A stretch of DNA of 64,000 bases from Candidatus Palauibacter rhopaloidicola (GTDB lineage: Bacteria > Gemmatimonadota > Gemmatimonadetes > Palauibacterales > Palauibacteraceae): contig JAPPGH010000055.1 in assembly GCA_026914155.1 (NCBI GenBank), positions 1 to 64,000 on the forward strand. The letters are read 5' to 3'. The number at the start of each line of letters is the position of its first letter. Position 1 is the stretch's first letter. The notes beneath the pieces were generated by a model. That model was not told the DNA's origin, searched no databases, and was given only the letters and a program-made list of their open reading frames with translations. The translations under genes and the position numbers were made by a program. This document shows positions 8,630 to 36,626 of this stretch, piece after piece.

Positions 8630-10963
8630 ATGAACCGCCGCCCGTCCCGCTCCGCCGTTTCACCGAAGGCTCGCATCGCGGCACTGGTTCGCGATGACAA
8701 GTGGTTCCTGGGGGGACTGGACGGCGTGGCGTGGGCGCCGCCGTTCCCGAGGTGGCTGCACCGGCCGGGGTTCTGGGATCCCGTTCACCTGCTGCAACAC
8801 GAGGTCGGCCCCGGGTTCTCGGTGGCCCTCCTGGGCTCCGACGGGCGGGAGATCCCGCTGCGTCGGGCGGCCCCCGGCCCCGGCGGTGGCGAGCCGGGCC
8901 CCGGCAGGTGGCGGCCCGGGCGGCTGACCGTCGGGTGGCTGGACGACCGAGGCGTCCTCGTCGAGGAAAGCCGCCAGGTGCTGCCGGGCGGAATCCTGGA
9001 ATCCACCTGGGACATCCCCCGCAGCTTCGAGGGGCATCTGGTCGGCTTCACCGCGCAGCCGGCGGACGCGACGGACGGGGTGACGCCCACGGCGGACGGC
9101 GTGAGCTGGACGCGGACCGTTTCGGACCGGCGCGGGCAGGAACTGGTGCTGCACATGGAACTCTCCGGCTCGGGATCGCCCGAGTGGCGGCGCATCGTGC
9201 CGTCCGAGGGCCTCGCCGCGCCCGAATGGCGGCATGCGCCCTTCGCGGAAGGTGGCGGCGACCCCGTGGGCACCGCGCCCCCGGGCGCCGACCCCCCGCC
9301 CGGTCCACCTCCCGACCCGCGTGCCGGCCTGGACGCCCAACGCGGGGGCTGGATCTGGATCGCCGTCGCGCTTCCGCTGGAAGGGATCGACGGCGGCGGA
9401 GCGCCGACGTTCCGGCTCACCCTTCGCCCCCGGCGCCCCGAAGCTTGCGGCCCGCCCCCAACGTCTTCGATTCCCCCGACCCCGGCATCCCCGACGCGCG
9501 GGCCGGACGAGGCCCGAACGGCCCCTGCCTGGGAATCCTTCTTCGGCGGTTTCCCGCATTTCGAGAGCGGCGATCCGTATCTCGACCGCACCTTCGACTA
9601 CCGCATCTACGGTCTCGGCCTGAACCGCATCGAGGGCGCGTGGGGCCCGGTGCGGCACCCCGCCATCGCCGAGGGACCGGAGTACTTCCACGTGCCGATC
9701 GCCTACAGCGCGCAGTGCCACATGATGGAGATGCGGTGGCGGACGGGCGGGCGCGAGGCATGGGGCTCGCTCCTGAACTTCGTCGACAACCAGAAGCCGG
9801 ATGGCTCCTTCCACGGGCGCCTCTATCCCGAGCGCCTTGAGGGCACGGACTTCTACCACGCGAACTGGGGCGACGCGCTGCTCGCGGTCGACGACATGCA
9901 CCCGGATGCGGCGGCGCTGGCCCGCTGCTACGAGGGGCTGTCACGCTATGCCCGCTGGCTGGCGGCGGAGCGCGATCCGGAGGCGTCGGGGATGTTCACC
10001 GTCACGAACCACTTCGAGACGGGACAGGAGTACATGTCGCGCTACATGGCCGTGGACGAGGAGGCCGACGTGGCGGGGTGGCGTCCCCGGCTCCGGCTCA
10101 AGGGGATCGACGTCACGGTCTACGCGCACCAGTTGTTTCGCGCCCTCGCCGCCGTGGCGCGCCGTCTGGAGCGATCCGGCGACGAGGCCGAGTGGCGCGG
10201 GCTCGGAGCCCGCTGCCGGAGGGCGATCGACGAGCGGATGTGGTCGGCGGAGGCCGGGCTGTTCACGGACGTGGACGGACGCACAGGCGAGCGGACCGGC
10301 GTGAAGGCGGCGGTGGGGTTCTATCCGCTGCTCACCGGAGGGGTCGAGGGCGCGCGGCTCGATGCCCTGCTCGATCACCTCGAGAATCCTGCGACGTTCG
10401 GGACGCGCTTCCCCCTGCCTTCGTCCAGCGTGGACGACCCGCGGTTTTCGGCCGAGGGCATCTGGCGCGGGAAGCGCCGCAACTGCCCGTGGAACGGACG
10501 CGTCTGGCCGATGACGACGAGCCATGTGATCGAAGGGCTGCTGCGCTGCTGGCGCGGCAGGAACTCGCGGGCGAACGCCCGGGCCGGCGCGCTGGCGGGC
10601 GACATGCTGCACCGCTTCGCGCGCATGATGTTCACCGATGGCGACGCTTCGCGCCCGAACTGCTTCGAGCACTACAACCCGCACACGGGTCGCGCGTGCC
10701 ACTTCCGGGGGATCGACGACTACCAGCACTCGTGGGTACTCGACCTGCTGGCGCGCGGATTCGGCGGGCTTCATGTAGACACGAGGGGCGTCGAGGTGCG
10801 GCCGCTGCCGAACGGTCCCGCGCGGGTGTCGCTGGGACCGGTCATCGCGCGGGGGCGCACGGTGTCCGTCGAGGTGGCGCCCGAACGGGTGAGCCTGGAG
10901 GTGGACGGCGATCGGTTCGACGGGCCGCGCGGCGAGCCTCTGCGGGTGCCATGGGTCTCGTGA
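8630..10963 (+). CDS. MGH1-type / GH63-like glycoside hydrolase
   Basis: A 777-residue protein with a beta-rich N-terminal part (about 1-290, including a proline-rich stretch around 215-235) and an (alpha/alpha)6-barrel C-terminal part like mannosylglycerate hydrolase and GH63 glucosidases. Diagnostic stretches include NPATFGTRFPLPSSSVDDPRF, WNGRVWPMTTSHVIEGLLR, FEHYNPHTG and DYQHSWVLDLLARG. No signal peptide is seen, so it is probably cytoplasmic and acts on an imported sugar. ATG 8630 was chosen as the first ATG before clearly family-like sequence; the frame is open from 8534. The ABC transporter ATPase gene overlaps its end, so it is probably the first gene of the sugar uptake operon. The exact linkage cleaved is not determined. 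Confidence 0.75.
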   Translation: MNRRPSRSAVSPKARIAALVRDDKWFLGGLDGVAWAPPFPRWLHRPGFWDPVHLLQHEVGPGFSVALLGSDGREIPLRRAAPGPGGGEPGPGRWRPGRLTVGWLDDRGVLVEESRQVLPGGILESTWDIPRSFEGHLVGFTAQPADATDGVTPTADGVSWTRTVSDRRGQELVLHMELSGSGSPEWRRIVPSEGLAAPEWRHAPFAEGGGDPVGTAPPGADPPPGPPPDPRAGLDAQRGGWIWIAVALPLEGIDGGGAPTFRLTLRPRRPEACGPPPTSSIPPTPASPTRGPDEARTAPAWESFFGGFPHFESGDPYLDRTFDYRIYGLGLNRIEGAWGPVRHPAIAEGPEYFHVPIAYSAQCHMMEMRWRTGGREAWGSLLNFVDNQKPDGSFHGRLYPERLEGTDFYHANWGDALLAVDDMHPDAAALARCYEGLSRYARWLAAERDPEASGMFTVTNHFETGQEYMSRYMAVDEEADVAGWRPRLRLKGIDVTVYAHQLFRALAAVARRLERSGDEAEWRGLGARCRRAIDERMWSAEAGLFTDVDGRTGERTGVKAAVGFYPLLTGGVEGARLDALLDHLENPATFGTRFPLPSSSVDDPRFSAEGIWRGKRRNCPWNGRVWPMTTSHVIEGLLRCWRGRNSRANARAGALAGDMLHRFARMMFTDGDASRPNCFEHYNPHTGRACHFRGIDDYQHSWVLDLLARGFGGLHVDTRGVEVRPLPNGPARVSLGPVIARGRTVSVEVAPERVSLEVDGDRFDGPRGEPLRVPWVS

Positions 10964-12093
10964 CCCGCGCGCCGCAGGGCGTGGAGCTGCGCGGCGTGGA
11001 AAAGCGCTACGGCGACGTCGCGGCCGTCCGGGCGCTGGACCTGGAGGTCCGGCCGGGAGAGCTGGTGGTGCTGGTGGGCCCCTCGGGGTGCGGGAAGAGC
11101 ACGCTGCTGCGCCTCATCGCCGGGCTCATCGAACCCACCGCCGGGGAGGTACGGATCGGGGGACGGCGCGTGGACGACGTCGAGCCGGGCGCCCGCGACG
11201 TGTCCATGGTGTTCCAGAGCTACGCGCTCTACCCGCACATGACCGTGGCCGGGAACCTGGGCTTCGGCCTGCGGGTGCGGGGCACGCCGCGCGACGAGAT
11301 CGAGCGGCGTGTCGCGGACGCCGCCGCCGCGCTCGGGCTCGCCGAACTGCTGTCGCGGAAGCCCGGCCAACTGTCCGGCGGACAGCGCCAGCGGGTCGCG
11401 CTGGGGCGGGCCATGGTCCGGGATCCGGGCGTGTTCCTGTTCGACGAGCCGCTCTCGAACCTGGACGCGGAACTCCGACTGCGGACGCGCGACGAGATCG
11501 CCGCCCTGCACCGGCGGCTCGGCACGACGATGATCTTCGTGACGCACGACCAGGTGGAAGCGCTGTCGCTGGGCGAGCGGGTCGCGGTCATGGATCGCGG
11601 CCGGCTCCAGCAGGTGGGCACGCCGGATGAGGTCTACCGCCGGCCGACGAACCTGTTCGTGGCGGGCTTCGTCGGGTCGCCGCCCATCAACCGCATCTTC
11701 CTGTCCCGAGACGAGGCGGGCCGCCTGGCGGGCGGTCCGTTCGCCCTGCAGGCGCCGCCGGACCTCGACCGGGCTACGCTCGCGGTGCGGCCGGAGGATC
11801 TCGCCGTCGTCCCTGGCGGGGCGCACGATTCGAGCGAGGCCGGCGACGCGACCGAAGCGGGCGACTTCCGGGCCACCGCGCTCCGCGTCGAAGCGCTGGG
11901 CAGCGAGCAGCGCGTGCACCTGGACGGCCCCGGCGACGCGGCGTGGGTGGTGCGCGCGGGCCCCGCCCTCCGGGTCGCGCCCGGCGACCGGTTGCGCGTG
12001 TCGGTCGCGTGGGAGCGCAGCCACCTGTTCGGTCCGGACGGCCGCCGCGAGGAGGCCGCGCCGCGACCGCTGGGCCGGCTGGCTTCGCCATGA
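10951..12093 (+). CDS. Carbohydrate ABC transporter ATP-binding protein (UgpC/MsmK type)
   Basis: A 380-residue ATPase with Walker A GPSGCGKST, Q-loop VFQSYALYPHMT, signature LSGGQRQR, Walker B VFLFDEPLSNLD and switch histidine THD. The C-terminal 130 residues form the OB-like regulatory domain (LAVRPEDL, GDRLRVSVAWERSHLF) typical of sugar importers such as UgpC, MalK and MsmK. ATG 10951 overlaps the glycosidase stop by 13 bases; GTG 10960 in the same frame forms a GTGA overlap and is an equal candidate. It should energise the two permeases encoded downstream. All three carbohydrate-importer elements are present, so this looks like a complete transporter rather than a shared orphan ATPase. 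Confidence 0.9.
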   Translation: MGLVTRAPQGVELRGVEKRYGDVAAVRALDLEVRPGELVVLVGPSGCGKSTLLRLIAGLIEPTAGEVRIGGRRVDDVEPGARDVSMVFQSYALYPHMTVAGNLGFGLRVRGTPRDEIERRVADAAAALGLAELLSRKPGQLSGGQRQRVALGRAMVRDPGVFLFDEPLSNLDAELRLRTRDEIAALHRRLGTTMIFVTHDQVEALSLGERVAVMDRGRLQQVGTPDEVYRRPTNLFVAGFVGSPPINRIFLSRDEAGRLAGGPFALQAPPDLDRATLAVRPEDLAVVPGGAHDSSEAGDATEAGDFRATALRVEALGSEQRVHLDGPGDAAWVVRAGPALRVAPGDRLRVSVAWERSHLFGPDGRREEAAPRPLGRLASP

Positions 12094-13379
12094 CGCGCCA
12101 CCTCGTCCTCGCGGCCCTCGTCCTCGCCGCCCTGGGCCTCGCGGCGGCCGGCTGCGCGCCCGGCGAGTCGGACACCGTGCTGCGCGTGGCGCTCTGGGCC
12201 GGTGGGCATGAACTCGAGATCGAGCGGCAGGTGGCCGACCGCTACGAAGCGCTGCACCCCGGCGTCCGCGTCGCGCTCGAATCGGCCCCCAACGGATACG
12301 AGGAGCGCCTGCTGACCTCGATCGCGGCGGGGCGTCCGCCGGACGTCTATCTCATGGATTCGCCGGACATCCCGACCTTCGTGGAGCGTGGGCTGGCGCT
12401 GGACCTCGCGCCGTACGAGGAGGCGCTCGGCTTTCGGCCGGACAGCGTGTTCGGCCAGGTGGCGGACGCGTTTCGCCGAGGCGCGTCCATGTTCGCGCTG
12501 CCGAAGGACTTCACGCCGATGGTCCTGTACGCGAACCGCGGCGTGCTCGCCGCCGCAGGAGTCGAGGACCTTCTGCCCGCGGCCGGCTGGACGTGGACGG
12601 ACTTCCGGCGGGCCGCGGAGACGGTCGTGGCGGATACCGACGGCGACGGCCGGACGGATGTGTTCGGGTTCGACTTCCCGCGTAACCTGTACCAGTGGGT
12701 TCCGTTCGTGTGGTCGGCGGGCGGCGACATCCTGGCGCCTGGCGGCGGCGGGGCGGCGGGCTATCTGGACGGGCCGGAAGCGCTGGAGGCGTACCGCTTC
12801 CTCACGGCCCTGGCGGAGGGCGGCCTCACGCCGGGCGCGCAGTTCGTCCAGCAGGGAGACCCCGCGCGAGAGGCGCGCTTCGCATCGGGCGGACAGGCGT
12901 TCCTGCTGTCGGGCCACTGGACGCTCCCCGTGTTCCGGGATCTCGTGGAGACGGGGGACCTGGAACTGGCCATCGTCCCCATCCCGCACCATCCCTCGCG
13001 GACGGCGGCGACGAGCGTGCTGTACGCGTCCGGGTGGGCCGTGCCTCCGAACGCGCCGCACCTGCGCCGGGCCATCGACCTGGCCGGCTTCCTCGCCTCG
13101 CCCGAAGCGCAGCGTATTCGGGCACGGTCCGGACTCGCCATTCCCTCGCGGATCGACGTGGCGGCGGAGATCGCGGCGGCGGACGGCACCGGAGTCGAGC
13201 GTGCGTTCATCGAGTTGGTGGAAGGCGCCCGGATGACGTGGGGCGCCCGGGTGCGCGACTTCTCCCGCATCGAGGCGCTGGCGGTGGAGATCATGGACCG
13301 CCGCCTGATCCGGGGCGAGCCCCTCGCCTCGAGCGCCTCGGACGTGGCCCGCCGCATCGACGCGGAGTTCGGGCGGTGA
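12090..13379 (+). CDS. Extracellular sugar-binding lipoprotein of the ABC importer
   Basis: A 429-residue solute-binding protein, family 1. The start ATG overlaps the ATPase stop as ATGA. The N-terminus is a lipoprotein signal ending LAAAGC, followed by the usual opening VLRVALWAGGHELEIERQVADRYE and PPDVYLMDS. A DTDGDGRTD segment near residue 190 looks like an EF-hand-type calcium loop, as in galactose- and maltose-type binding proteins. The closing helices (RRIDAEF) are normal, so the gene is intact. It would deliver the sugar to the two permeases. The ligand cannot be read from sequence, but the neighbouring galactokinase-like fusion and two glycosidases point to a hexose or short oligosaccharide. 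Confidence 0.88.
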   Translation: MTRHLVLAALVLAALGLAAAGCAPGESDTVLRVALWAGGHELEIERQVADRYEALHPGVRVALESAPNGYEERLLTSIAAGRPPDVYLMDSPDIPTFVERGLALDLAPYEEALGFRPDSVFGQVADAFRRGASMFALPKDFTPMVLYANRGVLAAAGVEDLLPAAGWTWTDFRRAAETVVADTDGDGRTDVFGFDFPRNLYQWVPFVWSAGGDILAPGGGGAAGYLDGPEALEAYRFLTALAEGGLTPGAQFVQQGDPAREARFASGGQAFLLSGHWTLPVFRDLVETGDLELAIVPIPHHPSRTAATSVLYASGWAVPPNAPHLRRAIDLAGFLASPEAQRIRARSGLAIPSRIDVAAEIAAADGTGVERAFIELVEGARMTWGARVRDFSRIEALAVEIMDRRLIRGEPLASSASDVARRIDAEFGR

Positions 13380-15157
13380 GCCGTGCGCGGCAGCCGGCTC
13401 TCGCCCCCCTCGCCGCCGTCGTCCTGGCCGCCGGGCTGGCGCTGGTTGTGGCCATCGCCGCGGGCCGGGTTCAGAGCGTGCGGGTGGCATCGGCGGAGGC
13501 CGAGGCGCGCATGGCGGCCGCGCTGTGGGAGGCGGGGGGCGGCGTCCCGGCCGTCGCCGGACTGCTCGGCGAGCGGGCCACGATCCTCGGCGCGGGCGAC
13601 GGAAGCGACGGGGCGGGGGCATACGCCTACGAGGCCGGTGCGCTCGAGCCCGCCGCCTGGATCGCGGTCGCGCCGCGCCGCGCGGGCGGACGGCTGGGCG
13701 CGCTCCCCGGCGGCGCCCTCGCCATCGCGCTGGCGGGCGCCGCGCTCATCGCGGGCTGGGCCGCGGGGCGGCGCCGCGGGCCGGCCCGTTCGCGCTACCC
13801 AAGGGTCATCGCGCTCCTCTCGATCGGCTGCGTCGCCCTGACGGCGGCCACCGCCGGGCGGTGGGCGGACCGCGAACTCCGGTCGCTGAGCGCCGCCACG
13901 GTGGCCCGAGGGGCCCAAGCCGTCGAGTTGGCCCTGGCGAGCGGCGCGGAGCCGGCGCGCGCCGCCCGGGTCGCCGGGCTGCCCTGGGCCCACGACGGAT
14001 CGCTGGAGTCCGCGGACGGGCAGTGGACCATGCCGTTCGAGGTGGCGGCGACCATCGCCGCCTCGCCGGACCGAGGGTCGCAGCCCGCGGGGGCGCCCGC
14101 GGGGGCGCCATACACGGTGGAGGCGAGCGGCGCTACGTGGCACGCGGCCCGCGCCGCGGACATCCATCTCGCCCTGCTCGGATACGAGCGCACCGCCTCG
14201 CCCGCCCTCGCGCTGGCCGCCGCGGGCGGGCTCGCGACCCTGCTGGTCGTGCTGGCGCTCCACCTGGTGCAACTCGCGGCCCGTCCCCGCGCCATGCGTC
14301 GTACCCTCGCGGCCTGGGGCCTCCTCGCGCCGGCGGCGGCCCTCATCCTCGCGTTCACCCTCGGGCCGCTCGTCTTCTCGCTGTGGATCTCGCTGCACGA
14401 ATGGCGCCTCATCGACCCCGCGCCGCTCTTCCTCGGATTCGACAACTACGCGGCGCTGCTCGCGGACGGCGAGTGGTGGTCGGCGATCGGGAACACGGCG
14501 CTGTTCACGCTGCACGTGCCCGCCGCGATGGCCATCGCCCTCGCCCTCGCCCTCCTCACCCGTGGGTCGCGCCGCGCCATGCGCTGGGCCCGGCTCGCCC
14601 TCTTCCTCCCCGGCATCACGAGCGTGGCGGCGATCGCGGTGGTGTGGAAGTGGCTGCTGAGCGACCGGTACGGGCTGCTGAACCGGGGTCTGGAGCGCGT
14701 CGGGCTCGAGTCCGTCCCGTGGCTCACCTCGCCCGACACCGCGCTCGTCAGCCTGATGGCGATCGGGGTCTGGATGGTCGTGGGCTACCAGATGGTCGTC
14801 TTCCAGGCGGGCCTCGCCGCGATCCCGCGCGACTGGTACGAAGCGGCCCGGGTCGACGGCGCGGGGCCGTGGCAGCGCTTCCGCCACGTCACCCTTCCCG
14901 GCCTGCGCCACACCCTGTTCTTCGTGCTCGTCACGTCCGTCATCGGGTCCTTCCAGGTGTTCGGACTCGTCTACGTGATGACCGAGGGCGGCCCGCTGGG
15001 CGCTACCGATGTCGCCGTCTATCACATCTACCGCGAGGCGTGGGAGTTCCTGCAGTTCGGCAACGCGGCGGCGATGAGCTGGATGCTGTTCGCGGTCGTG
15101 TTCGCCGCCACGTGGCTGCACTTCCGCTTCCTCGATACGCGGCGCGCCCATGGCTGA
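13376..15157 (+). CDS. Sugar ABC permease (MalF-like) with long sensor-like N-terminal extension
   Basis: The start GTG overlaps the binding-protein stop (GTGA). The protein has 593 residues, about twice the usual 290-320. From about residue 310 it is a standard permease: ILAFTLGPLVFSLW, then the EAA loop EAARVDGAGPWQRFRHVTLPG near 488-508. The first 300 residues hold four hydrophobic segments (about 8-30, 110-128, 142-160, 272-296) separated by two extracytoplasmic stretches. Both stretches contain a similar element (VAGLLGERATILGAGDGS and VAGLPWAHDGSLESADGQ), so the extension looks like two related membrane-anchored modules. Such an extension could sense ligand or the binding protein; that is inference. 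A known alternative is the longer MalF of enterics, whose extra domain sits between helices 3 and 4, not in front. Confidence 0.85.
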   Translation: MSRARQPALAPLAAVVLAAGLALVVAIAAGRVQSVRVASAEAEARMAAALWEAGGGVPAVAGLLGERATILGAGDGSDGAGAYAYEAGALEPAAWIAVAPRRAGGRLGALPGGALAIALAGAALIAGWAAGRRRGPARSRYPRVIALLSIGCVALTAATAGRWADRELRSLSAATVARGAQAVELALASGAEPARAARVAGLPWAHDGSLESADGQWTMPFEVAATIAASPDRGSQPAGAPAGAPYTVEASGATWHAARAADIHLALLGYERTASPALALAAAGGLATLLVVLALHLVQLAARPRAMRRTLAAWGLLAPAAALILAFTLGPLVFSLWISLHEWRLIDPAPLFLGFDNYAALLADGEWWSAIGNTALFTLHVPAAMAIALALALLTRGSRRAMRWARLALFLPGITSVAAIAVVWKWLLSDRYGLLNRGLERVGLESVPWLTSPDTALVSLMAIGVWMVVGYQMVVFQAGLAAIPRDWYEAARVDGAGPWQRFRHVTLPGLRHTLFFVLVTSVIGSFQVFGLVYVMTEGGPLGATDVAVYHIYREAWEFLQFGNAAAMSWMLFAVVFAATWLHFRFLDTRRAHG

Positions 15158-15971
15158 CCGCGCGGTCGCGCCCCGGACGGCGCGGGGGCTCCTGCTCGCC
15201 GCGGCGTGCCTCGTCATGGCCGCGCCCTTCGCGTGGATGGCGCTCACGAGCCTCATGGGGCAACTGGAAGTGTTCGCCGGCGGGGGTCTCCTGCCGCGGT
15301 CGCCGCGATGGTCCAACTATCCGGAGGCACTGACGATCCAGCCGTTCGGGCGCTACTTCCTGAACTCGCTCGTGTTCGCGACCGCGGTGGCGGCGGGCCA
15401 GGTCGCGACCTCCGCCGCCGCCGGGTACGCCTTCGCCCGCCTCGACTTCCCGGGACGGGACGGGCTGTTCATGCTCTTTCTGTCGACGATGATGGTGCCC
15501 GCGGTCGTCATCCTCATCCCCCGCTTCCTCATGATCGAGGCGCTCGGCTGGATCGACACCTACCAGGGACTCATCTCCACGGAACTCGTCTCTGTGTGGG
15601 GCATCTTCCTCATGCGGCAGTACTTCCGGACGGTGCCGCGCGAGCTGGAGGACGCCGCGCGCGTGGACGGGGCCGGGCGCGTGCGCATCTTCTGGAGCGT
15701 CGCCCTGCCGCTCGCGAAGCCCGCCGTGGCCACGCTCGCGCTGTTCGCGTTCGTCGACGCGTGGAAGAACCTGCTGTGGCCGCTCCTCGTGACCCGCTCC
15801 ATGGAGATGCGCGTCGTCGAGGTGGGGATCGCCGCCTTCCATTCGACCTACGAGATCCACTGGCCCTACCAGATGGCGGCCGGCGTCGCCGCCGTGCTGC
15901 CCATCGCCCTCCTCTTCCTCTTCACCCAGCGGTACTTCGTGCGCGGCATCCAACTCGAAGGCATCCGCTAG
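15150..15971 (+). CDS. Sugar ABC permease (MalG-like)
   Basis: A 273-residue inner-membrane permease overlapping the preceding gene by 8 bases. It begins MADRAVAPRTARG and has six hydrophobic helices of the MalG/UgpE family. The EAA loop EDAARVDGAGRVRIFWSVALP at about 166-186 contacts the ATPase. The C-terminus FVRGIQLEGIR is a typical end for the family. With the preceding three genes it completes a type I sugar importer. No gene follows closely on the same transcript until the HicB gene 97 bases later. That gap holds no clear terminator. Confidence 0.9.
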   Translation: MADRAVAPRTARGLLLAAACLVMAAPFAWMALTSLMGQLEVFAGGGLLPRSPRWSNYPEALTIQPFGRYFLNSLVFATAVAAGQVATSAAAGYAFARLDFPGRDGLFMLFLSTMMVPAVVILIPRFLMIEALGWIDTYQGLISTELVSVWGIFLMRQYFRTVPRELEDAARVDGAGRVRIFWSVALPLAKPAVATLALFAFVDAWKNLLWPLLVTRSMEMRVVEVGIAAFHSTYEIHWPYQMAAGVAAVLPIALLFLFTQRYFVRGIQLEGIR

Positions 15972-16647: not shown

Positions 16648-18654
16648 ATGCGCATCGGGGCGCTTGAGGCGCGGCGCTGGGCCGGGCTCGTGTTCGCGGC
16701 CGGGCCCGGAGAAGGGATCGGCCTCCGACTCGTCTTCACCACCCCGAGCGGTGAGCGGCGGGAGTTGGAGGACTGGTACTGGATGGTCTCCCGCGTCGGG
16801 CCCCACGCGCCGGACGGATCCTACGCCCGCATGGAGTTCGATCTCGCCGCCGAGCCTTCGCCCGACTCCCGCCCCGGGGAGGGCACGCTCATCCTGGAAT
16901 GGGCGCGCCGCGAAGACGCCGTGGCGCTGCGGGCGGTGGCGCGGGCGCCGGGCCGGGTGGAGCTGGTCGGGGACAATCCGTGGGGATGGAAGACGACCTG
17001 GGAGGAAGCGTCCGATGGCTGGCGGGCCGCGCCGGGAGGCGTGGAGATCGCCGCCGCGTTCGCGCCGCGCGCGGGAGACCGTGCGGCCACGTTGGTCGTC
17101 TGGGAGTCGAGCGGTACGCCGTCTCGATCCGGAGCTGTCCTCGCCCGGGCCAAACGCGTTCTCCAGGAGTTGGACCCCTGGATCGACGACGCGCGCCGCG
17201 CCTGGGACCGCCGCCGACCACGTTCGTCAGGGGCCGCTGAAGGACTGGTCGAGGCCGTTACGGACCACCTGATGTGGACTATTCTCCTTCAGCCGGAAAC
17301 GGGTCGACTCTACGCGCCGGCCGGCCGCCGCTGGATCTTTCCGAAATCAGACGACGCCTCGGCGAAGGGTGACGGCACGGCGGAGGGCGCGGGCGTGAAA
17401 CAGGGCGCGGCGGGGCCCGACGACTGGACTGTGTTCGGATGGGATTCCTTCTTCAACGCCCTCGCGCTCGCCACCGCGTCCGGACGACTCGCGTGGGAGG
17501 TACTCCTTGCGGGGCTCGAGTCGCGCTACCCGAACGGGAACGTGCCCAACTGGCGGACCCGGCGCGGCGGCACGCCCGACCGCTCGCAGCCCCCGATCGG
17601 GTCGTACGCGGCGCTGAAGCTGCACCTCCTGTGCCCCGACGTGGACGCGCTAGCGGCGGCTTGGCCGGGGCTCCGCGCCTGGAACGACTGGTGGCTGGCC
17701 GACAAGGGTGGACGCCCGCGCCGGGAGGGCCTCACGCCTGGACTGCTGGCGTGGGGCTCGGACGCAGCACTGGTGCCGGAGCGCGAGCGACTCCCGAAGT
17801 GGGAAGTGGGCGCGGATGGCCACCAACGCGCGGCGTGGGAATCGGGCCAGGACGACCTGCCGCTGTGGGAGGAGGCGGAATGGGACCCGGAGCGGGAAGT
17901 CCTCGCGATGTCCGCCGTCGACCTGTGCAGCTACCGCGCCCTGGACCTCGAGTGCCTGGCGCGGATCGCCCGCATCCTCGGCCACGGGGGGGAGGCGGAT
18001 CGGCTGGAGGCGGAGCGCCGCCGACTCATCGAGACGATGAACCGGGTGCTGTGGTCCGAGACCGCCGGGCTCTACCTGGACGAGCTGCCTGCCGGTCACT
18101 CTCCTCGCGTGGCGGCGTCGAACTTCCTTCCCCTGATCGCCGGCGTGCCGTCAGCGCGGCGGGCGCGGCGCATGGTCGGTGTGCTTCGCGACCCCGCGCG
18201 CTTCGGGGGAGAGTGGGGGCTGCCCACGATCTCGCGCGACGACCCCGCGTTCGACGACCAGCAGTACTGGCGCGGCTCCATCTGGCCACCCATGAATTAC
18301 CTCGTGCTGCAGGGACTGCGACGGTACGGGTTCGACGAGCTCGCAAGCGAGCTGGCATGGAAGGGGGCGCTCATGTTCCTGGCCGACCTCCGGCGCACGG
18401 GGTTCTGCCGCGAGAACTTCGACGCGCGGAGCGGTCGCGGGCGAGGGCACCGCTTCCAGAGCTGGGGACCGCTGTTCGCGCTGGGCGCGATCGAGGAGTT
18501 CGTTGACGCCTCTCCGTGGCGCGGACTGCGCATCGGCGCCCGGCTGCCCGCGATCGTCGCGTGCGGGGAGGCCGCCGTCGACGGCGCCGTCCAGGCGCGC
18601 GTTGAAGGGCTCCGCGTCGCGGGCGAGGCGCGGACGGTGGAGATGTCGCGATGA
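16648..18654 (+). CDS. Second MGH1-type glycoside hydrolase
   Basis: A 668-residue protein with the same family features as the enzyme at 8630: VFGWDSFFNALALATASGRLAWEV, SNFLPLIAGVPSARRARRMV, FGGEWGLPTISRDDPAF and YWRGSIWPPMNYLVLQGLRRYG of the (alpha/alpha)6 barrel. There is no signal peptide. The start ATG 16648 was chosen because the sequence before it (frame open from TTG 16561) is low-complexity and unlike the family. It ends in an ATGA overlap with the next gene, so the two are translationally coupled. It is probably an intracellular exo- or endo-glycosidase paired with the first one on a related substrate. The substrate is unknown. Confidence 0.75.
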   Translation: MRIGALEARRWAGLVFAAGPGEGIGLRLVFTTPSGERRELEDWYWMVSRVGPHAPDGSYARMEFDLAAEPSPDSRPGEGTLILEWARREDAVALRAVARAPGRVELVGDNPWGWKTTWEEASDGWRAAPGGVEIAAAFAPRAGDRAATLVVWESSGTPSRSGAVLARAKRVLQELDPWIDDARRAWDRRRPRSSGAAEGLVEAVTDHLMWTILLQPETGRLYAPAGRRWIFPKSDDASAKGDGTAEGAGVKQGAAGPDDWTVFGWDSFFNALALATASGRLAWEVLLAGLESRYPNGNVPNWRTRRGGTPDRSQPPIGSYAALKLHLLCPDVDALAAAWPGLRAWNDWWLADKGGRPRREGLTPGLLAWGSDAALVPERERLPKWEVGADGHQRAAWESGQDDLPLWEEAEWDPEREVLAMSAVDLCSYRALDLECLARIARILGHGGEADRLEAERRRLIETMNRVLWSETAGLYLDELPAGHSPRVAASNFLPLIAGVPSARRARRMVGVLRDPARFGGEWGLPTISRDDPAFDDQQYWRGSIWPPMNYLVLQGLRRYGFDELASELAWKGALMFLADLRRTGFCRENFDARSGRGRGHRFQSWGPLFALGAIEEFVDASPWRGLRIGARLPAIVACGEAAVDGAVQARVEGLRVAGEARTVEMSR

Positions 18655-20819
18655 AGCACATGGCGTCGGCCGACCGGCCGGAGAGGCCGACGCTGGTGAT
18701 CCTCGCCGCCGGGCGATCCACCCGGTTCGGTCGCGCCAAGCAACTCGAACCGGTGGGGCCGGGCGGCGCGTCGCTGCTCGAATACGCCGTGTACGACGCC
18801 GTGCGCGCGGGCTTCGGGCGTTTCGTTCTCGTCGTGCGGGAGAGTCAGCGCGATGAGTTCGAGGCGCGACTGCGTCCAATGCGGGCCGCGGGGGTCTCTC
18901 TCTCCCTCGCCTGCCAGCGTCTCGTCCACCCCGACCTCGTCCCGCTCGCCCCACCCGGGCGGGTTCGGCCGTGGGGCACGGGATTCGCCGTGCTGGCCGC
19001 GGCGACGGCCCTGCCCCGCCAGGGCCCGTTCGCGGTCTGCAACGCGGACGACTTCTACGGGCGAGTCGCGCACGAGCGCCTGGGGCACGCCCTCGCGGAT
19101 CCTCCCTCGGGCGTCCGCGCCTTCGCGGTGACCTCCCCCCTGGCCAACACCCTGTCGGCCTTCGGCGGCGTGTCGCGCGGTCTGTGCGAAGAGCGGCCCG
19201 ACGGCACGCTGCTCCGCATGACCGAAGGCCTGGATCTGCGCCTTGACGGCGACGCACCGCGGACGGGCGAAGGCGCCGAAGCCCCGGCCGCCCGGCCCCG
19301 CGTCGTCGGGCGCACGCCCTCCGGCGCGGCGATCCGAGTCGACGGGGACAGTCAGGCGTGTATGGGCCTGTGGGGGTTCTTCCCCGACATCCTGCCCCTG
19401 CTGGAGGAGCGCTTCCGGGACTTCGTCGCCGCGTCCCCCGGGACCGAGGACGAGTTCTACCTGTCGGAGACCGTCGGCGATCTTGCGGCCGCCGAACGGA
19501 CGCGCTGCGGCCTGGTGCCCGCCGGCCAGGGGTGGATGGGCGTCACCTTCCCCGGAGACCGCGAGCGCGTCGCCGTCTCGCTCCGGCAACTGACCGAGGC
19601 CGGCGCGTATCCCGTCGATCTCTGGACGCCACACGTTCACGCGAAGCCGGTCGGATCGGCGCAGCCGTCACTCTTCGGTCCACCGCCGGCGCCGCCGAGC
19701 GGGGTCGCGACCGCTCCGGGGCGCATCAACCTGATCGGCGAGCATATCGACTACAACGGCCTGCCGGTGCTGCCGATGGCTCTCGACCGACACGTCAATG
19801 TGGACTTCGAGGCGGTGGCGCACTCGACGGTCGAACTCGAAGGCGATTCCGTCCACGGTTCGTTCGCCTTTCGGCTGGACCGCGCAACCGAATCCGCCCC
19901 CCGGGGACACTGGTCGAACTACGTGAGGGCCGCCGCCAGGGGGTTGCTCGACCACGGCGTGGAACTGCGGCGAGGCATCCGGGGAACGGTCACGGGCACC
20001 GTTCCGGTGGCGGAGGGGCTGTCGTCCTCCTCCGCCCTCGTGGTCGCCTCCGCGCTGGCCCTGTTGCACGCCAACGAGGCGCAGGTGGAGGCGCTGGAAC
20101 TGGCGGCGCTCCTCGCCCGCGCCGAGCGGTATGTCGGCCTGCAGGGCGGCGGCATGGACCAAGCCGCGTCTCTCTGCGGAAGAGAAGGGCACGCGCTGCG
20201 GATCGACTTCGGACCGCTGCGCGTTACGCCGGTACCGGTGCCGGAGGGATGGCGGTGGGTCGTCGCCTCGTCGTTGACGCGCGCGGAGAAGGCGGGCGCC
20301 GTCCGCGAGCTGTACAACGAGCGGCGCGCCCAGTGCGCGGAGGCCCTCGAGCGCGTGGGCCGCACGTCCTGGCTGGAGGTGGTGGAAGCCGACGAGGACG
20401 AGTTCGCATCCATCCTGGCCGGGGCGCGGAAGTCGCTACCGCTCACGTTGTCGAGGCGCTTTCGTCATGTGGCCAGCGAGGGCCGCCGGGTGATCGAGGC
20501 CGAGCGCGCCCTGCGCGGCGACAACATGGCCGCCTTCGGCCGGCTGATGAACGAGTCGCACGCCAGCCTGCGCGATGACTTCGGCGTGAGCACGCAGGCT
20601 CTGGACGAGATCGTGGGCGTGGCCCGCGACGCGGGCGCGGCCGGGGCGCGGCTCACGGGCGCGGGATTCGGCGGCTGCGCGGTCGCGCTCTGCCGCGCCA
20701 ACGAGGCGAAGGGCGTGATCGAAGCCCTCATCGACCGTTTCTACGCCCCCCGCGGAGGCGTCGATCGCCGAGCCCTCTTCGTCGCCGACGCCTCCAACGG
20801 CGCCACCGTAACGCCGTAA
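18651..20819 (+). CDS. Nucleotidyltransferase-galactokinase (GHMP) fusion
   Basis: A 722-residue two-domain protein. Residues about 10-330 are a sugar nucleotidyltransferase: ILAAGRSTRFGRAKQLEPVG is the nucleotide-binding loop and VCNADDFYG holds the metal-binding aspartates. From about 345 a galactokinase-type GHMP kinase follows: GRINLIGEHIDYNGLPVLPMA (galactokinase signature, near 356), the ATP loop EGLSSSSALVVASAL (about 455), and GAGFGGCAVAL near the C-terminus. Kinase plus pyrophosphorylase in one chain resembles Bacteroides Fkp (fucokinase/GDP-fucose pyrophosphorylase), but the kinase domain here is closest to galactokinase. The simplest reading is sugar to sugar-1-phosphate to NDP-sugar salvage. 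It is ATGA-coupled to the second glycosidase. The true sugar and nucleotide are not known. Confidence 0.8.
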   Translation: MKHMASADRPERPTLVILAAGRSTRFGRAKQLEPVGPGGASLLEYAVYDAVRAGFGRFVLVVRESQRDEFEARLRPMRAAGVSLSLACQRLVHPDLVPLAPPGRVRPWGTGFAVLAAATALPRQGPFAVCNADDFYGRVAHERLGHALADPPSGVRAFAVTSPLANTLSAFGGVSRGLCEERPDGTLLRMTEGLDLRLDGDAPRTGEGAEAPAARPRVVGRTPSGAAIRVDGDSQACMGLWGFFPDILPLLEERFRDFVAASPGTEDEFYLSETVGDLAAAERTRCGLVPAGQGWMGVTFPGDRERVAVSLRQLTEAGAYPVDLWTPHVHAKPVGSAQPSLFGPPPAPPSGVATAPGRINLIGEHIDYNGLPVLPMALDRHVNVDFEAVAHSTVELEGDSVHGSFAFRLDRATESAPRGHWSNYVRAAARGLLDHGVELRRGIRGTVTGTVPVAEGLSSSSALVVASALALLHANEAQVEALELAALLARAERYVGLQGGGMDQAASLCGREGHALRIDFGPLRVTPVPVPEGWRWVVASSLTRAEKAGAVRELYNERRAQCAEALERVGRTSWLEVVEADEDEFASILAGARKSLPLTLSRRFRHVASEGRRVIEAERALRGDNMAAFGRLMNESHASLRDDFGVSTQALDEIVGVARDAGAAGARLTGAGFGGCAVALCRANEAKGVIEALIDRFYAPRGGVDRRALFVADASNGATVTP

Positions 20820-20880: not shown

Positions 20881-21096
20881 ATGCCGATGCAAACCTACAC
20901 TGCCGTCGTGGAGCGCTGCCCCGACACGGGCCTTTACGTGGGCTACGTGCCCGGTTTCCAGGGTGCGCACAGCCAAGGCGAGACCCTTGAGGAACTCAAC
21001 CGGAATCTCAAGGAAGTGATCGCCATGCTTCTCGAGGAAGGGACGCCCGCGCTCGTTGGCGAGTACGTAGGTACGCAGACCGTCGTCCTGGCCTAG
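20881..21096 (+). CDS. hicB: HicB-family antitoxin (pair 2)
   Basis: A 71-residue HicB-like protein: YTAVVERCPDTGLYVGYVPGF, then GAHSQGETLEELNRNLKEVI is the typical strand-strand-helix pattern. As with pair 1, no separate DNA-binding domain is present. The HicA gene begins 6 bases after its stop. The two HicB proteins share only family-level similarity and differ in most positions, so pair 2 is not a recent copy of pair 1. Confidence 0.85.
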   Translation: MPMQTYTAVVERCPDTGLYVGYVPGFQGAHSQGETLEELNRNLKEVIAMLLEEGTPALVGEYVGTQTVVLA

Positions 21097-21337: not shown

Positions 21338-24300
21338 ATGAAGCACATTGGCGGTGGGACAACCGCGATCCGGGCCTGTGTCATTTGTGCCGCTCTGGGT
21401 GCCGTCTCATGCGACGCTCCGGGGCCGCGCGCTCGGATCTCGGAGGAGGTGCGGGTTCTGGATACGTATCCGTTTTCGGATCCGAATCCCGTGCCGGTGC
21501 TGGCCACGGACCGGCGGCTGTACCCCTACCACACGTTCGAGGGGTACGCGGCGACATCGGAGCCCCGGGAGTGGAAGGTCGTGACGATGGAGAACGACCT
21601 CATCGAGGTCTTCGTCCTTCCGGAGGTGGGCGGCAAGGTGTGGGGGGCCGTGGTGAAGGCGACCGGGCACGAGTTCATCTATCGCAATGAAGTGATGAAG
21701 TTCCGGGACATCGCGCTCCGCGGCCCGTGGACCTCCGGCGGCATCGAGTTCAACTTCGGCGTCATCGGGCACACGCCGGCCACCGCCACGCCCGTCGACT
21801 ACGTCGTGCGGGAGAACGCGGACGGCAGCGTGAGCACGATCGTCGGCGCCACCGACCTCCCGTCGCGGACACCGTGGCGGGTTGAGATCCGGCTTCCGCC
21901 GGACCGGGCGGCCTTCGAGACGCGCGTCCTGTGGTACAACCCGACCGCGCTGGAGCAGCCCTACTACAACTGGATGACGGCCGCGGCCTTCGCGCAGGAC
22001 GACCTGGAACTGTTCGTGCCCGGCGACGCCTACCTGGAGCACTCGGGGCGGGAGCGCCCCTGGCCCGAGGATGAGGAAGGACGCTTCCTGCCCCTCTACC
22101 GCAACAACGCGTTCGGGGGACACAAGTCCTACCACGTCGTCGGGGCGCTGAACGACTTCTTCGGCGGCTACTACCACGACGAGGACTACGGCTGGGGGCA
22201 CTGGGCCCCGCACGAGGAGATGCCGGGGCGCAAGATGTGGCTGTGGGCGCTCTCGCGGGCGGGGGGCATCTGGGAGGACCTCCTCACCGACACGGACGGA
22301 CAGTACGTCGAGTTCCAAGCCGGACGGCTCCATGCGCAGTACCAGCCGGGAGCGCACCGCAACCCGGTCTCGAAGGCCGGCTTCGACCCCCTCTCGGCCA
22401 GCCGCTGGACCGAGTGGTGGTTCCCGCTGGAGGGGACGGGCGGGCTCTCGGACGCTTCGCCTCACGGCGCCATGCACGTCGAACGGGAGAGCGACCGCCT
22501 GCGGGTCGTGGTCCAGGCGTTCGGGACCGGGGTCGACACCGTGGCGGCATGGTCGGGCGGCGAACCGGTCGACGCGCGGGCGGTGGCGCTCGAACCCCTT
22601 GAGCCGGTGGCCCTTGAGTTCGACGTCGATCCCGGGCGCCCGTGGCGCGTTGCCGTGCCGGGGCTCCGCCTGGAAGCCTGCTCGAGGCCGGGCGCGACCG
22701 GTCTCGCCGGGGTGTGCGGATTCGGCGGAGAGCCCTCGGTGTCCCGGCCGTTCGGGACGAACGCCGAGGCGTGGGAAGCGCTCCCGGAGACGGATCGCCT
22801 GGTGTTCGAGGCAAGGGAGCTGGCGCGGGCCCGCCGCCATGCCGACGCGCGGACGCTGTACGACCGGGCGCTCGCGGCCGAGCCGTGGAACCGGGATGCA
22901 TTGCTGGGTCTCGGCACGCTGGCCCTGAGGTCGGCCCGCCACGAGGAGGGCCTCGCCCACGCCCGGCGCGCGCTCCAGCTCGACACCTACGACCCGGAGG
23001 CCAACTTCCTCGCCGGCAACCTGTATCTCGCCCTCGGGCGCCGCGCCGATGCGCTCGACTCGTTCGGCTGGGCCGCCCGGTCGGTGGCGTTCCGGGCCGC
23101 GGCGCGCACCCGGCTGGCGGAGTTGGCGCTGGAGGCGGGGGACATGGCCGAAACGCGCCGCCACGCCGCGCTGGCGCTCGACCACGACCGCGTGGGTATT
23201 CCGGCCCGCGAGGTGCTCGCGATCGCGGCGCGCCTGGAAGGAGACGAGACGGGCGCGGCGCGCGTGCAGGCGGAGTTGCTGGAGCTCGACCCGCTGAACC
23301 ACTTCGTGCTGGCCGAGCGCTATCTCGCGGCGCCGGCCCAGGGAGCCGATGCGGCGCGCCTCACCGCGTCGATGCGGAGCGAGGTTCCGGGGCAGACGCT
23401 GCTCGAACTCGCCGTGGGCTACGCGAACCGCGGGCTGCCCGGCGAAGCCGCGCGCCTGCTGGAGTTGGCGGACGAGGTGGACGGCGGCCCCGTCGCCGCC
23501 GCCTGGCTCGCCTTCCTGACGAGTGACGCGGAGATGCTGCGGGCGGGAGCCGATCCCGCCTTCGCCTTCCCCTACCGCCCCGAGACGCTGCCGGTCCTGC
23601 GCTGGGCGGCCGCCGAAGACCCGCACTGGGGTTGGCGCTACCTGCTCGGCCTGAACCTGTGGGCGCTCGACCGCGACGCCGAGGCGGCCGAAGTGCTGTC
23701 GGCCCTGGGCCACGAGCCTGACTACGGCCCCGCCTACGCGGCGCGGGCGCACCTGACGGAGGCCCTGGGCGGCGACCCCGGGCCCGACTTCCGCCGCGCG
23801 GTCGAGATGGATCCCGGCAACCGCCTCCTCCACATCTCTCTCGTCCGGCACCTGCAGGAGACGGGACGCTGGGCCGAGGCGCGCGAGGCGTCCGGCCGGG
23901 GACGGGAACTCTTCCCGGACGACTTCAACCTCGCCCTCGTTCACGCGCGGGGGCTCATCCAGGCGGGCGAGTACCGCGAGGCCAACGGGATCCTTGCCGG
24001 CACCCGCGTACTACCCTCGGAGAATTCCGGCGAGGCCCACCGCCTGTACGAATTCCTGCACATCGGGGCCGCGCTGGACGAACTGGAGGCCGGGAACCGC
24101 CCGCTCGCCCGCCGTCACCTGGAAGCGGCGCTGCTGTGGCCCGAATCGCTCGGCCAGGGCCGGCCCTTCGACCCCGACGACCGCCTCGTACGGTTCCTGC
24201 TCGACGCGGCGGCGGAGAGCCTCGACGGCGGACCCGTACCCCGGGCCTTCGAGACCGTCACCATCGCCTCGCTGCGCGCCCGCATCGATTCGCTCGCCGC

Positions 24301-24379
24301 GGCCGCATCCCCGATCGCCACGATCGAGCAGGACCTCCTGCGCCGGGCCCTCGCCGCCGCCGCCCGCCTGCAACGCTAG
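21338..24379 (+). CDS. DUF5107 and TPR domain lipoprotein
   Basis: A 1013-residue exported protein. ATG 21338 begins a lipoprotein signal (LGAVSCDAPG). Residues about 30-400 are DUF5107, a sugar-mutarotase-like fold: WKVVTMENDLIEVFVLPEVGGKVWG, GGIEFNFGVIGHTP and WMTAAAFAQDDLELFVPG. From about 470 onward it is a long series of tetratricopeptide-like helices (ALLGLGTLALRSARHEEGLAHARRAL, FLAGNLYLALGRRADALDSFG and so on). This family is found near carbohydrate-degradation genes in other bacteria, and here it follows the sugar ABC locus. Function is not established. It ends 7 bases before the convergent MFS gene. Confidence 0.8.
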   Translation: MKHIGGGTTAIRACVICAALGAVSCDAPGPRARISEEVRVLDTYPFSDPNPVPVLATDRRLYPYHTFEGYAATSEPREWKVVTMENDLIEVFVLPEVGGKVWGAVVKATGHEFIYRNEVMKFRDIALRGPWTSGGIEFNFGVIGHTPATATPVDYVVRENADGSVSTIVGATDLPSRTPWRVEIRLPPDRAAFETRVLWYNPTALEQPYYNWMTAAAFAQDDLELFVPGDAYLEHSGRERPWPEDEEGRFLPLYRNNAFGGHKSYHVVGALNDFFGGYYHDEDYGWGHWAPHEEMPGRKMWLWALSRAGGIWEDLLTDTDGQYVEFQAGRLHAQYQPGAHRNPVSKAGFDPLSASRWTEWWFPLEGTGGLSDASPHGAMHVERESDRLRVVVQAFGTGVDTVAAWSGGEPVDARAVALEPLEPVALEFDVDPGRPWRVAVPGLRLEACSRPGATGLAGVCGFGGEPSVSRPFGTNAEAWEALPETDRLVFEARELARARRHADARTLYDRALAAEPWNRDALLGLGTLALRSARHEEGLAHARRALQLDTYDPEANFLAGNLYLALGRRADALDSFGWAARSVAFRAAARTRLAELALEAGDMAETRRHAALALDHDRVGIPAREVLAIAARLEGDETGAARVQAELLELDPLNHFVLAERYLAAPAQGADAARLTASMRSEVPGQTLLELAVGYANRGLPGEAARLLELADEVDGGPVAAAWLAFLTSDAEMLRAGADPAFAFPYRPETLPVLRWAAAEDPHWGWRYLLGLNLWALDRDAEAAEVLSALGHEPDYGPAYAARAHLTEALGGDPGPDFRRAVEMDPGNRLLHISLVRHLQETGRWAEAREASGRGRELFPDDFNLALVHARGLIQAGEYREANGILAGTRVLPSENSGEAHRLYEFLHIGAALDELEAGNRPLARRHLEAALLWPESLGQGRPFDPDDRLVRFLLDAAAESLDGGPVPRAFETVTIASLRARIDSLAAAASPIATIEQDLLRRALAAAARLQR

Positions 24380-34866: not shown

Positions 34867-35874
34867 TCAGCCGCCGAGTGCGAGGAGGACCTTGCCGAAG
34901 GACTGGTTGGACTCGACGTAGCGGTGGGCTTCGGCGGCTTCGGCGAGGGGGAAGACGCGGTCGATGACGGGGCGCAGGTGGGAGGGGTCGGTCTCCGGGG
35001 CCGTGAAGCCGGGGAGGAAGCGGGTCGCGAACATATCCGTGAGGTATGCCTTTTCCGCCTTCGAGCGCGCGCGGAGGACGGTGCCCACGACGGTCGCGCG
35101 CTTCCCCATGAGGGTGCGCAGGTTGGCCTCGACCTTCATGCCGCCCATGACGCCGACGATGACGAGGCGGCCGAGAGTGGCGAGGCTGGCCATGTTCGCC
35201 TCCCAGTACGGGGCGCCGACGGTGTCGAGGATGACGTCGGCGCCGGCCCGGTCGGTGTGTCGCGTGACGGCGTCGGCGAAGGAGCCGGCCCGGCGGTCGA
35301 CGGCGAGGTCGTGCGGCAGTCCGGCTTCGCGGATGCGGTCGAGCTTGGCCGCCGACGCCGTGGCGAAGATCGAACCCGCCCCGCTAGCGCGGGCCAGTTG
35401 CAGGGCGGCGGTTCCCACGCCGCCGCCGGCCGTGTGCACGAGCACGGTCTCGCCGGGGCGCAGACGGCCGCGCTCGATGAGGGCGTCCGCCGCGGTGAGG
35501 AAGACCTCCGGGATCGCCCCGGCTTCGGTCCAGCTCAGCTTCGGCGGGACGGGCAGGAGCTGCCCGGCCGGCACCGCCACGCGCTCGGCGTAGCCGCCGC
35601 CGCCCAGAATGCCCATCGCGCGGTCGCCGGCGGACCAGCCGGAGACGCCCGTCCCGACCGCCTCGATCTCGCCGGCGAACTCGAGTCCCGGGATGTCGGG
35701 CGGGGCGTCCGCGGGGGCCGGATAGCGGCCCATCCGCTGCAGGAGATCGGCCCGGTTGATCCCCGCGCAGCGCACGCGCACGAGCACCTCGCCGGCCCCG
35801 GCGACGGGGGCGTCCCGCTCGACGAGTTCGAGCACCTCCGGGCCGCCGGGCTCCCCGATGCGGATCGCCTTCAT
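34867..35874 (-). CDS. NAD(P)H:quinone oxidoreductase (zeta-crystallin-like)
   Basis: A 335-residue MDR-superfamily enzyme without zinc-binding cysteines. It starts MKAIRIGEPGGPEVLEL, and contains LQRMGRYPAPADAPPDIPGLEFAGEI, the nucleotide loop GGGVGTAALQLARASGA and the NADPH-binding PYWEANMASLATLGRLVIVG region. Such enzymes reduce quinones with NADPH, and the TP53I3/PIG3-like group is closest in pattern. The start ATG overlaps the stop of the MurU-like gene (ATGA), so it is translated from the same transcript as the cell-wall salvage genes. Its link to them is unclear. Confidence 0.88.
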   Translation of the reverse strand: MKAIRIGEPGGPEVLELVERDAPVAGAGEVLVRVRCAGINRADLLQRMGRYPAPADAPPDIPGLEFAGEIEAVGTGVSGWSAGDRAMGILGGGGYAERVAVPAGQLLPVPPKLSWTEAGAIPEVFLTAADALIERGRLRPGETVLVHTAGGGVGTAALQLARASGAGSIFATASAAKLDRIREAGLPHDLAVDRRAGSFADAVTRHTDRAGADVILDTVGAPYWEANMASLATLGRLVIVGVMGGMKVEANLRTLMGKRATVVGTVLRARSKAEKAYLTDMFATRFLPGFTAPETDPSHLRPVIDRVFPLAEAAEAHRYVESNQSFGKVLLALGG

Positions 35875-36626
35875 GCGCCGACCGCCCCGAACGCCCGTCG
35901 CGCGGCGTCCAGCCGCTCGGGCGTCCCGATGTCGTACCACGCCGCGCCCGTCGCGTCGAACACCCCGACGTGCTCCCCATCTCCGATCCAGTCCATGTAC
36001 GAATCCATGATCGAAAAGACGCCTCCTTCCGCGTAGCGCTCGAACACGCGCGGCGAGAGCGCGTGGATGCCGCAGAAGCCGTACTCCCGGGCCTCGCCCG
36101 CGCTCGACGGCTCGCGCGCCACGACTTCCCACCCTTCGTCCCGATTCGCGCGCCCGTACACGCCGCGGCCGTCCACGAGGAGAGGGCGCGACGTCTCCCG
36201 CTCCGCGATCGCGAGCGTGGCCAGCCGCCCATCCCGCGCCTCGCCCTCCAGGTGCGCGCGGTACAGCGCCGCGAGGTCGACCTCGGTCACGACGTCGCAG
36301 TTGTGGAGCAGGAAGGGTTCCCGCGCCTCGAACAGCGACCGCGCGTGGAAGAGCCCGCCGCTCGTGTCGAGGGGAGCCGGCGACTCTTCGTCTTCCCGCG
36401 ACACGAACACCGGGACGCCCAGCGACGACGCCTCGGCCCACGCCGCCACCTGCCCGGCAAGGTAGTGCGCGTTCACGATCAGGCGGTGTGCGCCCGCCGC
36501 GACGAGCTTCCCGGCGACGCGCTCCAGCAACGGGATGCCGCCGAAGTCGACGAGCGCCTTGGGCGTCGCGTCGGTCAGCGGCCGCAGGCGGCGTCCCCGG
36601 CCGGCGGCGAAGATCATCGCCTCCAA
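35871..36626 (-). CDS. MurU/RmlA-like sugar-1-phosphate nucleotidyltransferase
   Basis: A 251-residue nucleotidyltransferase. TTG 36626 gives an N-terminus reading MEAMIFAAGRGRRLRPLT, matching MurU-like proteins; ATG 36617 is an alternative three codons on. The nucleotide loop GRGRRLRPLTDATPKALVDFGG and the HNCDVVTE metal aspartate region are intact, with REYGFCGIHALSP and WYDIGTPERLDAA in expected places. MurU makes UDP-MurNAc from MurNAc-1-phosphate in peptidoglycan recycling. The partner kinase AmgK is normally adjacent, and an AmgK-like gene lies directly upstream. GDP-mannose or UDP-GlcNAc pyrophosphorylase roles are possible alternatives. Confidence 0.82.
   Translation of the reverse strand: MEAMIFAAGRGRRLRPLTDATPKALVDFGGIPLLERVAGKLVAAGAHRLIVNAHYLAGQVAAWAEASSLGVPVFVSREDEESPAPLDTSGGLFHARSLFEAREPFLLHNCDVVTEVDLAALYRAHLEGEARDGRLATLAIAERETSRPLLVDGRGVYGRANRDEGWEVVAREPSSAGEAREYGFCGIHALSPRVFERYAEGGVFSIMDSYMDWIGDGEHVGVFDATGAAWYDIGTPERLDAARRAFGAVGA

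Follow-up and report, generated by a model that had tools for sequence, protein, structure and literature searches.

Among the described systems closest to the protein analyzed here are Fkp, which is named in PMC9875253, and human GalNAc salvage, in which GALK2 acts first and is followed by the UDP-GalNAc pyrophosphorylase UAP1 (PMC5487050). No description of the present fusion, or of any bacterial GalNAc kinase-nucleotidyltransferase pair, was found in the literature, which is weak evidence given that subscription papers were covered only in part. The window (the whole 64,000-nucleotide stretch of Candidatus Palauibacter rhopaloidicola DNA that was analyzed) encodes a single 722-aa chain at positions 18651-20819 of the forward strand, and its ORF translation runs from ATG to stop without an internal stop codon. 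The start codon is either the ATG at 18651, in a 4-nt overlap with the stop of the upstream gene, or the ATG at 18660.

This chain is a 3PNN-type, RmlA-fold nucleotidyltransferase (residues 12-326, approximately) joined to a GHMP kinase (approximately 345-720). An earlier note on this DNA had proposed a fusion of a nucleotidyltransferase with a GHMP kinase in one 722-residue chain, and the ORF together with Pfam, NCBIfam, and PDB matches bears this out. For description, we divided the protein into a nucleotidyltransferase half (residues 1-328, at 18651-19634), a linker (residues 329-350, at 19635-19700), and a kinase half (residues 351-722, at 19701-20819), all on the forward strand.

A domain search and structure prediction, two of the checks that the earlier note had suggested, both agreed with it on the fusion. 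NTP_transf_3 was found at residues 16-69 of the window protein (E 7.7e-9, above the Pfam cut-off), along with the GHMP kinase domains; NTP_transferase (PF00483), at 16-151, scored 19.9 bits, below its own cut-off of 21.2. By sequence, residues 12-324 match PDB entry 3PNN (E 5e-52), and the model of the N-terminal half (mean pLDDT 85.6) takes the RmlA fold, matching 3PNN first (34% identity, TM 0.81/0.89) and RmlA next. This half contains the segments LAAGRSTRFGRAKQ (residues 18-31), PWGTG (107-111), and NADDFYGR (131-138), and across 8 aligned fusions PWGT and NADD are identical while the signature shows one or two changes. The fold and these signature segments point to a sugar-1-phosphate nucleotidyltransferase. 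Another small nucleotidyltransferase (PF00483), which we take to be perhaps of the MurU kind, is encoded 15 kb downstream of the fusion, at 35871-36617 of the window.

In the kinase half, Pfam places GalKase_gal_bdg at residues 343-382, GHMP_kinases_N at 423-510, and GHMP_kinases_C at 619-698, and the NCBIfam galactokinase model TIGR00131 scores 252.4 bits, above its cut-off of 226.65. Its segments include APGRINLIGEHIDYNG, GLSSSSALVV, GGGMDQ (residues 499-504, identical in the 8 aligned fusions), and GARLTGAGFGG. The first PDB match by sequence is human GalNAc kinase (2A2C), from about residue 347 on, and human galactokinase also matches. With the kinase model (pLDDT 89.9), Foldseek placed human galactokinase (E 2.2e-31) slightly ahead of GalNAc kinase (E 7.1e-30), both with a TM of about 0.85 of the query. 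GGGMDQ is common to the window kinase and human GalNAc kinase, and it differs from the [CS]GIMDQ that is present in all seven loci of the phylum where GalT lies no more than 2 kb away. Since GGMDQ also occurs in the galactokinases of yeast and plants, the informative residue of GGGMDQ is its first G alone. Galactokinase, the specificity that the earlier note had favored, is probably the wrong label for this half: the segment is of the GalNAc-kinase type, many unfused members of the clade lie beside GH109-family genes, and the fusion stands in for a kinase and a nucleotidyltransferase absent from a GH109 locus, as described below.

Comparison of the window with five other fusions gave dN/dS values of 0.23-0.33 for the nucleotidyltransferase half, 0.16-0.24 for the kinase half, and 0.26-0.69 for the linker, the fastest-evolving part; both halves are under purifying selection. 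A chance ORF, a frameshift, or an assembly artefact was ruled out by these values together with stop-free frames in 13 of the 17 genomes of the window's genus. With the two domains kept in one conserved chain in those 13 genomes, the Fkp-like logic that the earlier note had drawn on holds up. Among the 60 relatives searched, the fusion was found in no other genus.

One further fusion appeared among the matches listed from 395 genomes of the phylum, in a genome of family f6 (G318). Its contig (C81, locus L073) is 85-93% identical to six loci of the window's genus, and this fusion is probably a binning error or contamination; a comparison of that contig with three f6 loci gave no match, which adds weak support, as those loci represent other parts of the genome. 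The 80 best loci, out of at least 586 matches in named genomes, showed no fusion, and that scan may omit the window's nearest kin. The fusion is the sole match for either half (E<=1e-3) in 12 of the 13 genus genomes that carry it. The thirteenth is the window's own bin, which holds a second, unfused pair on contig C13 (L024). Over 11-12 kb this contig shares 90-92% identity with three f6 genomes (six f6 loci compared), its GC content is 0.656 versus 0.709, and the pair on it is probably a contaminant. Binning contamination of this kind in L024 and L073 would inflate both the copy number and the host range of these genes.

The genus genomes lacking the fusion have a different arrangement. In one of them (G013, L038) the gene order is GFO, nucleotidyltransferase, SSF symporter, kinase, X1, and GH109; a second (G003, L037) has the same order with one extra gene after GFO, and in the remaining two (G005 and G012) only parts of this order are visible. 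GH109 is also present in 12 of the 13 fusion genomes, where it is 78-81% identical to that of L038 (80% for the copy in the window's own genome, on contig C33), and only G001 has the fusion with no match to GH109. In the fusion genomes, GH109, X1, and the SSF symporter remain together, sometimes with genes between them. The kinase is absent from all 12 of these loci, its slot being visible in each, and the nucleotidyltransferase is absent from the nine in which its slot is visible, the other three contigs ending first; slot and partner counts here rest on six-frame tblastn in draft genomes. Since both genes are missing from this locus and the fusion is the sole copy found, the fusion stands in for exactly two missing genes. 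This complementary absence is the weightiest single finding of the analysis.

The GH109 assignment comes from PDB matches to 6T2B and 2IXA (L038) and from Pfam GH109_C matches (L038, L043, L130, and L139). Characterised GH109 enzymes carry a GGHGG loop. The corresponding loop is GRGHGS in the window's genus, GGHGG in L139, and G[AS]GHGG in L043, L094, L102, and L130, and given its variant loop we treat the genus's protein as a putative N-acetylgalactosaminidase. X1 (L151:10441-11316) has no Pfam match and adjoins GH109 in the 15 genus loci with GH109 in view.

Phylogenetic trees were built quickly and with a single support measure, the kinase tree from 56 of 97 rows and the nucleotidyltransferase tree from 53 of the 57 rows collected plus five from outside, with nine near-identical fusion rows omitted from each. 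Both halves of the fusion group with the operon type of family f6 (nucleotidyltransferase-symporter-kinase; SH-aLRT 100 and 99) and stand apart from the unfused genes that the genus has of its own. Because both halves do so, the simplest reading is that the nucleotidyltransferase and the kinase arrived together and displaced the native pair.

The fusion itself lies in an importer locus, and the two glycosidases and the ABC importer that the earlier note had placed upstream are there, all on the forward strand: an MGH1/GH63-like glycoside hydrolase at 8630-10963 (Pfam), a UgpC/MalK-like importer ATPase at 10951-12093 (Pfam and NCBIfam, in the longer frame 10078-12093), an extracellular solute-binding protein at 12090-13379 (Pfam, longer frame), a permease at 13376-15157 (Pfam and NCBIfam, longer frame), a UgpE-like permease at 15150-15971 (Pfam and NCBIfam), and another MGH1/GH63-like hydrolase at 16648-18654 (Pfam), whose gene is the one overlapping the fusion. 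Solved relatives of this last enzyme match its C-terminal part only, and inspection by eye revealed no obvious signal peptide in either hydrolase. A protein with DUF5107 and TPR domains is encoded at 21449-24379 on the forward strand (Pfam). All 12 other genus loci have a GH63-like gene immediately 5' of the fusion and a DUF5107 gene 3' of it (one clipped by a contig end), with one or two small genes in between in some. The nearest permease lies upstream in 11, the contig of the twelfth ending first; a PALP-family gene is inserted in four of the 12, and one has a larger insertion. The linkage to importer and glycosidases is thus conserved within the fusion-bearing genus and was seen only there; unfused relatives adjoin a Na+ symporter and often GH109. 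In the window, a small HicB/UPF0150-like protein is encoded at 20881-21096, in the interval separating the fusion from the DUF5107 gene, and a related gene is present in a few of the other fusion loci.

Unfused kinases of the phylum have recurring partners, namely a nucleotidyltransferase of the type present in the fusion, a Na+:solute symporter (PF00474), and a GH109-family gene. We picked loci by score from matches in sets of 60 and 395 genomes, as groups of 20, 60, and 20 stretches. Most stretches of the final group, the source of the [CS]GxMD controls, are no longer than 13 kb and the others reach up to 20 kb, many ending at contig ends. The 101 loci analyzed comprise two with no kinase match (L124 and L134), 14 fusion loci, and 85 that were counted (63, 15, and 7, by kinase motif). 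In the fetched stretches of the 63 unfused GG[GA]MDQ loci, among which are L024, the probable contaminant, and loci almost identical to one another, L040 and L074 for example, the nucleotidyltransferase is present in 41, the symporter in 46, and GH109 in 27 (within 2 kb in 24); GalT occurs once, 7.9 kb away, and nine loci have none of the nucleotidyltransferase, symporter, and GH109. The 15 [CS]GxMD loci yielded GalT in seven, always within 2 kb, no nucleotidyltransferase, and one symporter and one GH109. The latter two are both in L141 and seem to belong to a second kinase cluster of that locus, a divergent one. Seven of the 85 loci have neither motif. In the 80 best loci from named genomes (at least 586 matches), GalT was found in 33, none of which has GGGMDQ (three have no readable motif), and GGGMDQ was found in eight, at least two of them repeating genomes already counted. 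The 21 f6 loci, the fusion's nearest unfused relatives, have the nucleotidyltransferase in 17, the symporter in 18, and an epimerase in six, and GH109 is in none of their 21 fetched stretches; two f6 genomes that were searched whole (G046 and G058) have GH109 elsewhere.

Similar modules also occur with other components. Both L130 and L139 hold GH109, an SSF symporter, a PF00483 nucleotidyltransferase with no match to the 3PNN-type seed, and a divergent GHMP kinase. Seed and Pfam matches give the same set (GH109, SSF symporter, PF00483 nucleotidyltransferase, and divergent GHMP kinase) for L141, and L134 has the symporter, the PF00483 nucleotidyltransferase, and a divergent GHMP kinase, with GH109 lying 0.7 kb beyond the stretch. 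The segment of this divergent kinase reads GKHVDY in L139 and GKHTDY in L141. In Hymenobacter tibetensis, a 3PNN-type nucleotidyltransferase, an APH-family kinase, and one further gene stand in a row with a GH109 gene whose product is 41.7% identical to that of L038. In other phyla, loci from Deltaproteobacteria and Thermoflexaceae (L176:1733-5776 and L199:9944-13883) bring together a melibiase-like gene, a PF00483 nucleotidyltransferase, and a kinase whose segment is GGGMDQ or SGGMDQ. This recurrence of the same module from other parts argues that kinase and nucleotidyltransferase form a functional unit, which several times acts downstream of GH109.

The reading we favor, and consider fairly probable, is that the fusion is a bifunctional GalNAc kinase/UDP-GalNAc pyrophosphorylase converting GalNAc to GalNAc-1-phosphate and on to UDP-GalNAc. 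In its favor are the gene pair missing from the GH109 locus, the GH109 assignment, the partner counts, the nearest solved kinase by sequence with its GGGMDQ, the recurrence of the module, the lack of GalT matches given below and of NagA and AgaS above cut-off, and the shared f6 placement of both halves in the trees. Against it stand the Bacteroidales pairs described below, the f6 loci without GH109, the fold ranking, the TIGR00131 match, the variant GH109 loop, G001, and the NagA and AgaS matches below cut-off. The C-terminal GHMP kinase would phosphorylate free GalNAc at C1 with ATP, and the N-terminal nucleotidyltransferase would join GalNAc-1-phosphate with, most likely, UTP to give UDP-GalNAc and pyrophosphate. 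Cytoplasmic GalNAc would be supplied by the separate locus, through the putative GH109 N-acetylgalactosaminidase and presumed transport by the Na+ symporter. A further, speculative source is the importer locus of the window with its GH63-like hydrolases. UDP-GalNAc could then enter surface glycans or be turned by a 4-epimerase into UDP-GlcNAc. NagA was detected above cut-off in none of 30 genomes (7 of 14 controls), with weak matches below cut-off in all 30, in short pieces, including one of 195 bits in G040; AgaS was likewise above cut-off in none of the 30, a weak test with only one of 14 controls positive, and matched below cut-off in eight, at 25 bits or less.

The main rival keeps the galactokinase label. 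In Bacteroidales, a 3PNN-type nucleotidyltransferase lies beside a CGIMDQ galactokinase in L168 and L217 and within 1.2 kb of one in L240 and L246, with no GalT match in these four stretches; a mutarotase-like neighbor in L168 and L217 and an MFS-type transporter in L217 were named by eye. Because it adjoins a CGIMDQ galactokinase there, the nucleotidyltransferase family is no guide to which sugar is used. Probably it can act in galactose metabolism, and the Bacteroidales pairs suggest a UDP-galactose pyrophosphorylase and a candidate function for 3PNN. The fusion could then be a true galactokinase joined to a UDP-galactose pyrophosphorylase that replaces GalT, in an Isselbacher-type route. 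GalT (TIGR00209) was not detected in any of 35 genomes of the family (8 of 60 relatives and 5 of 14 controls match), nor galT_2 (TIGR01239) in 40 relatives (2 of 14 controls), a soft feature in that bypass routes exist and the genomes are drafts. Galactokinase models (Pfam and TIGR00131) match the kinase half, GH109 adjoins none of the 21 f6 loci, and a GalE-like epimerase relative is present in all 30 genomes and lies beside the pair in six of the 21 f6 loci, although it does not separate Gal from GalNAc. Nevertheless, the motif and clade are unlike those of galactokinases linked to GalT in this phylum, the GH109 locus of the fusion genomes lacks exactly a kinase and a nucleotidyltransferase, and many other unfused relatives sit in a GH109 context. 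The appearance of this context led us to rate a plain galactose bypass lower, and we regard it as unlikely.

An enzyme of broad specificity, one that takes both Gal and GalNAc, perhaps along with further imported sugars, and feeds several UDP-sugars, would fit two observations: the fusion resides in a second sugar-uptake locus, separate from the one with GH109, and the partner of its nucleotidyltransferase family is galactokinase in certain lineages and a GH109-linked kinase elsewhere. The breadth itself is an assumption, and we hold this version to be distinctly improbable. A catalytically inactive or regulatory half, which would reduce the fusion to a kinase alone or a nucleotidyltransferase alone, appears very improbable: the nucleotidyltransferase half does evolve faster than the kinase half and scores below the PF00483 cut-off, but its PWGT and NADD segments are kept in the 8 aligned fusions, its dN/dS stays at the values given above, and no other nucleotidyltransferase of this family was matched in 12 of the 13 fusion genomes.

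Taking GalNAc as the substrate, we propose, with somewhat better than even confidence, a wider scheme: that GalNAc-1-phosphate salvage, made up of GH109, a Na+ symporter, a 1-kinase, and a nucleotidyltransferase, exists in Gemmatimonadota and other bacteria and was assembled on more than one occasion, with kinases and nucleotidyltransferases drawn from different families, and that in one genus both cytoplasmic enzymes came jointly from an operon type belonging to another family, were fused, entered an ABC importer locus, and ousted the native pair, giving a GalNAc counterpart of Fkp. If so, bacteria would take environmental GalNAc directly to UDP-GalNAc, bypassing the 6-phosphate route, glycan synthesis would gain a single enzyme for producing UDP-GalNAc, and galK annotations in this and perhaps other phyla would need re-examination. 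GGGMDQ together with a GH109 neighborhood offers a simple, testable annotation rule.

Compared with known proteins, the N-terminal half resembles 3PNN, from Porphyromonas gingivalis W83 (titled glycosyltransferase and conserved domain protein), which is a single-domain chain of about 300 residues rather than a two-enzyme chain. In the Bacteroidales pairs, too, a member of this nucleotidyltransferase family neighbors a GHMP kinase, but the genes are separate, the kinase has CGIMDQ, and a mutarotase-like neighbor, named by eye, makes it a galactose context. Human GALK2 and UAP1 resemble the fusion in the reactions proposed for it, and GALK2 has GGGMDQ in common with it; in contrast, the fusion is one chain, and its nucleotidyltransferase half resembles 3PNN and RmlA. 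Fkp likewise combines a sugar 1-kinase and a pyrophosphorylase in one chain that takes free sugar to nucleotide sugar, as predicted for the fusion. The fusion is not an Fkp by domain make-up, however: no fucokinase or Fkp-type domain was matched in it by Pfam or NCBIfam at E<=1e-3, its kinase belongs with galactokinase and GalNAc kinase, and its N-terminal half is of the 3PNN type with an RmlA fold.
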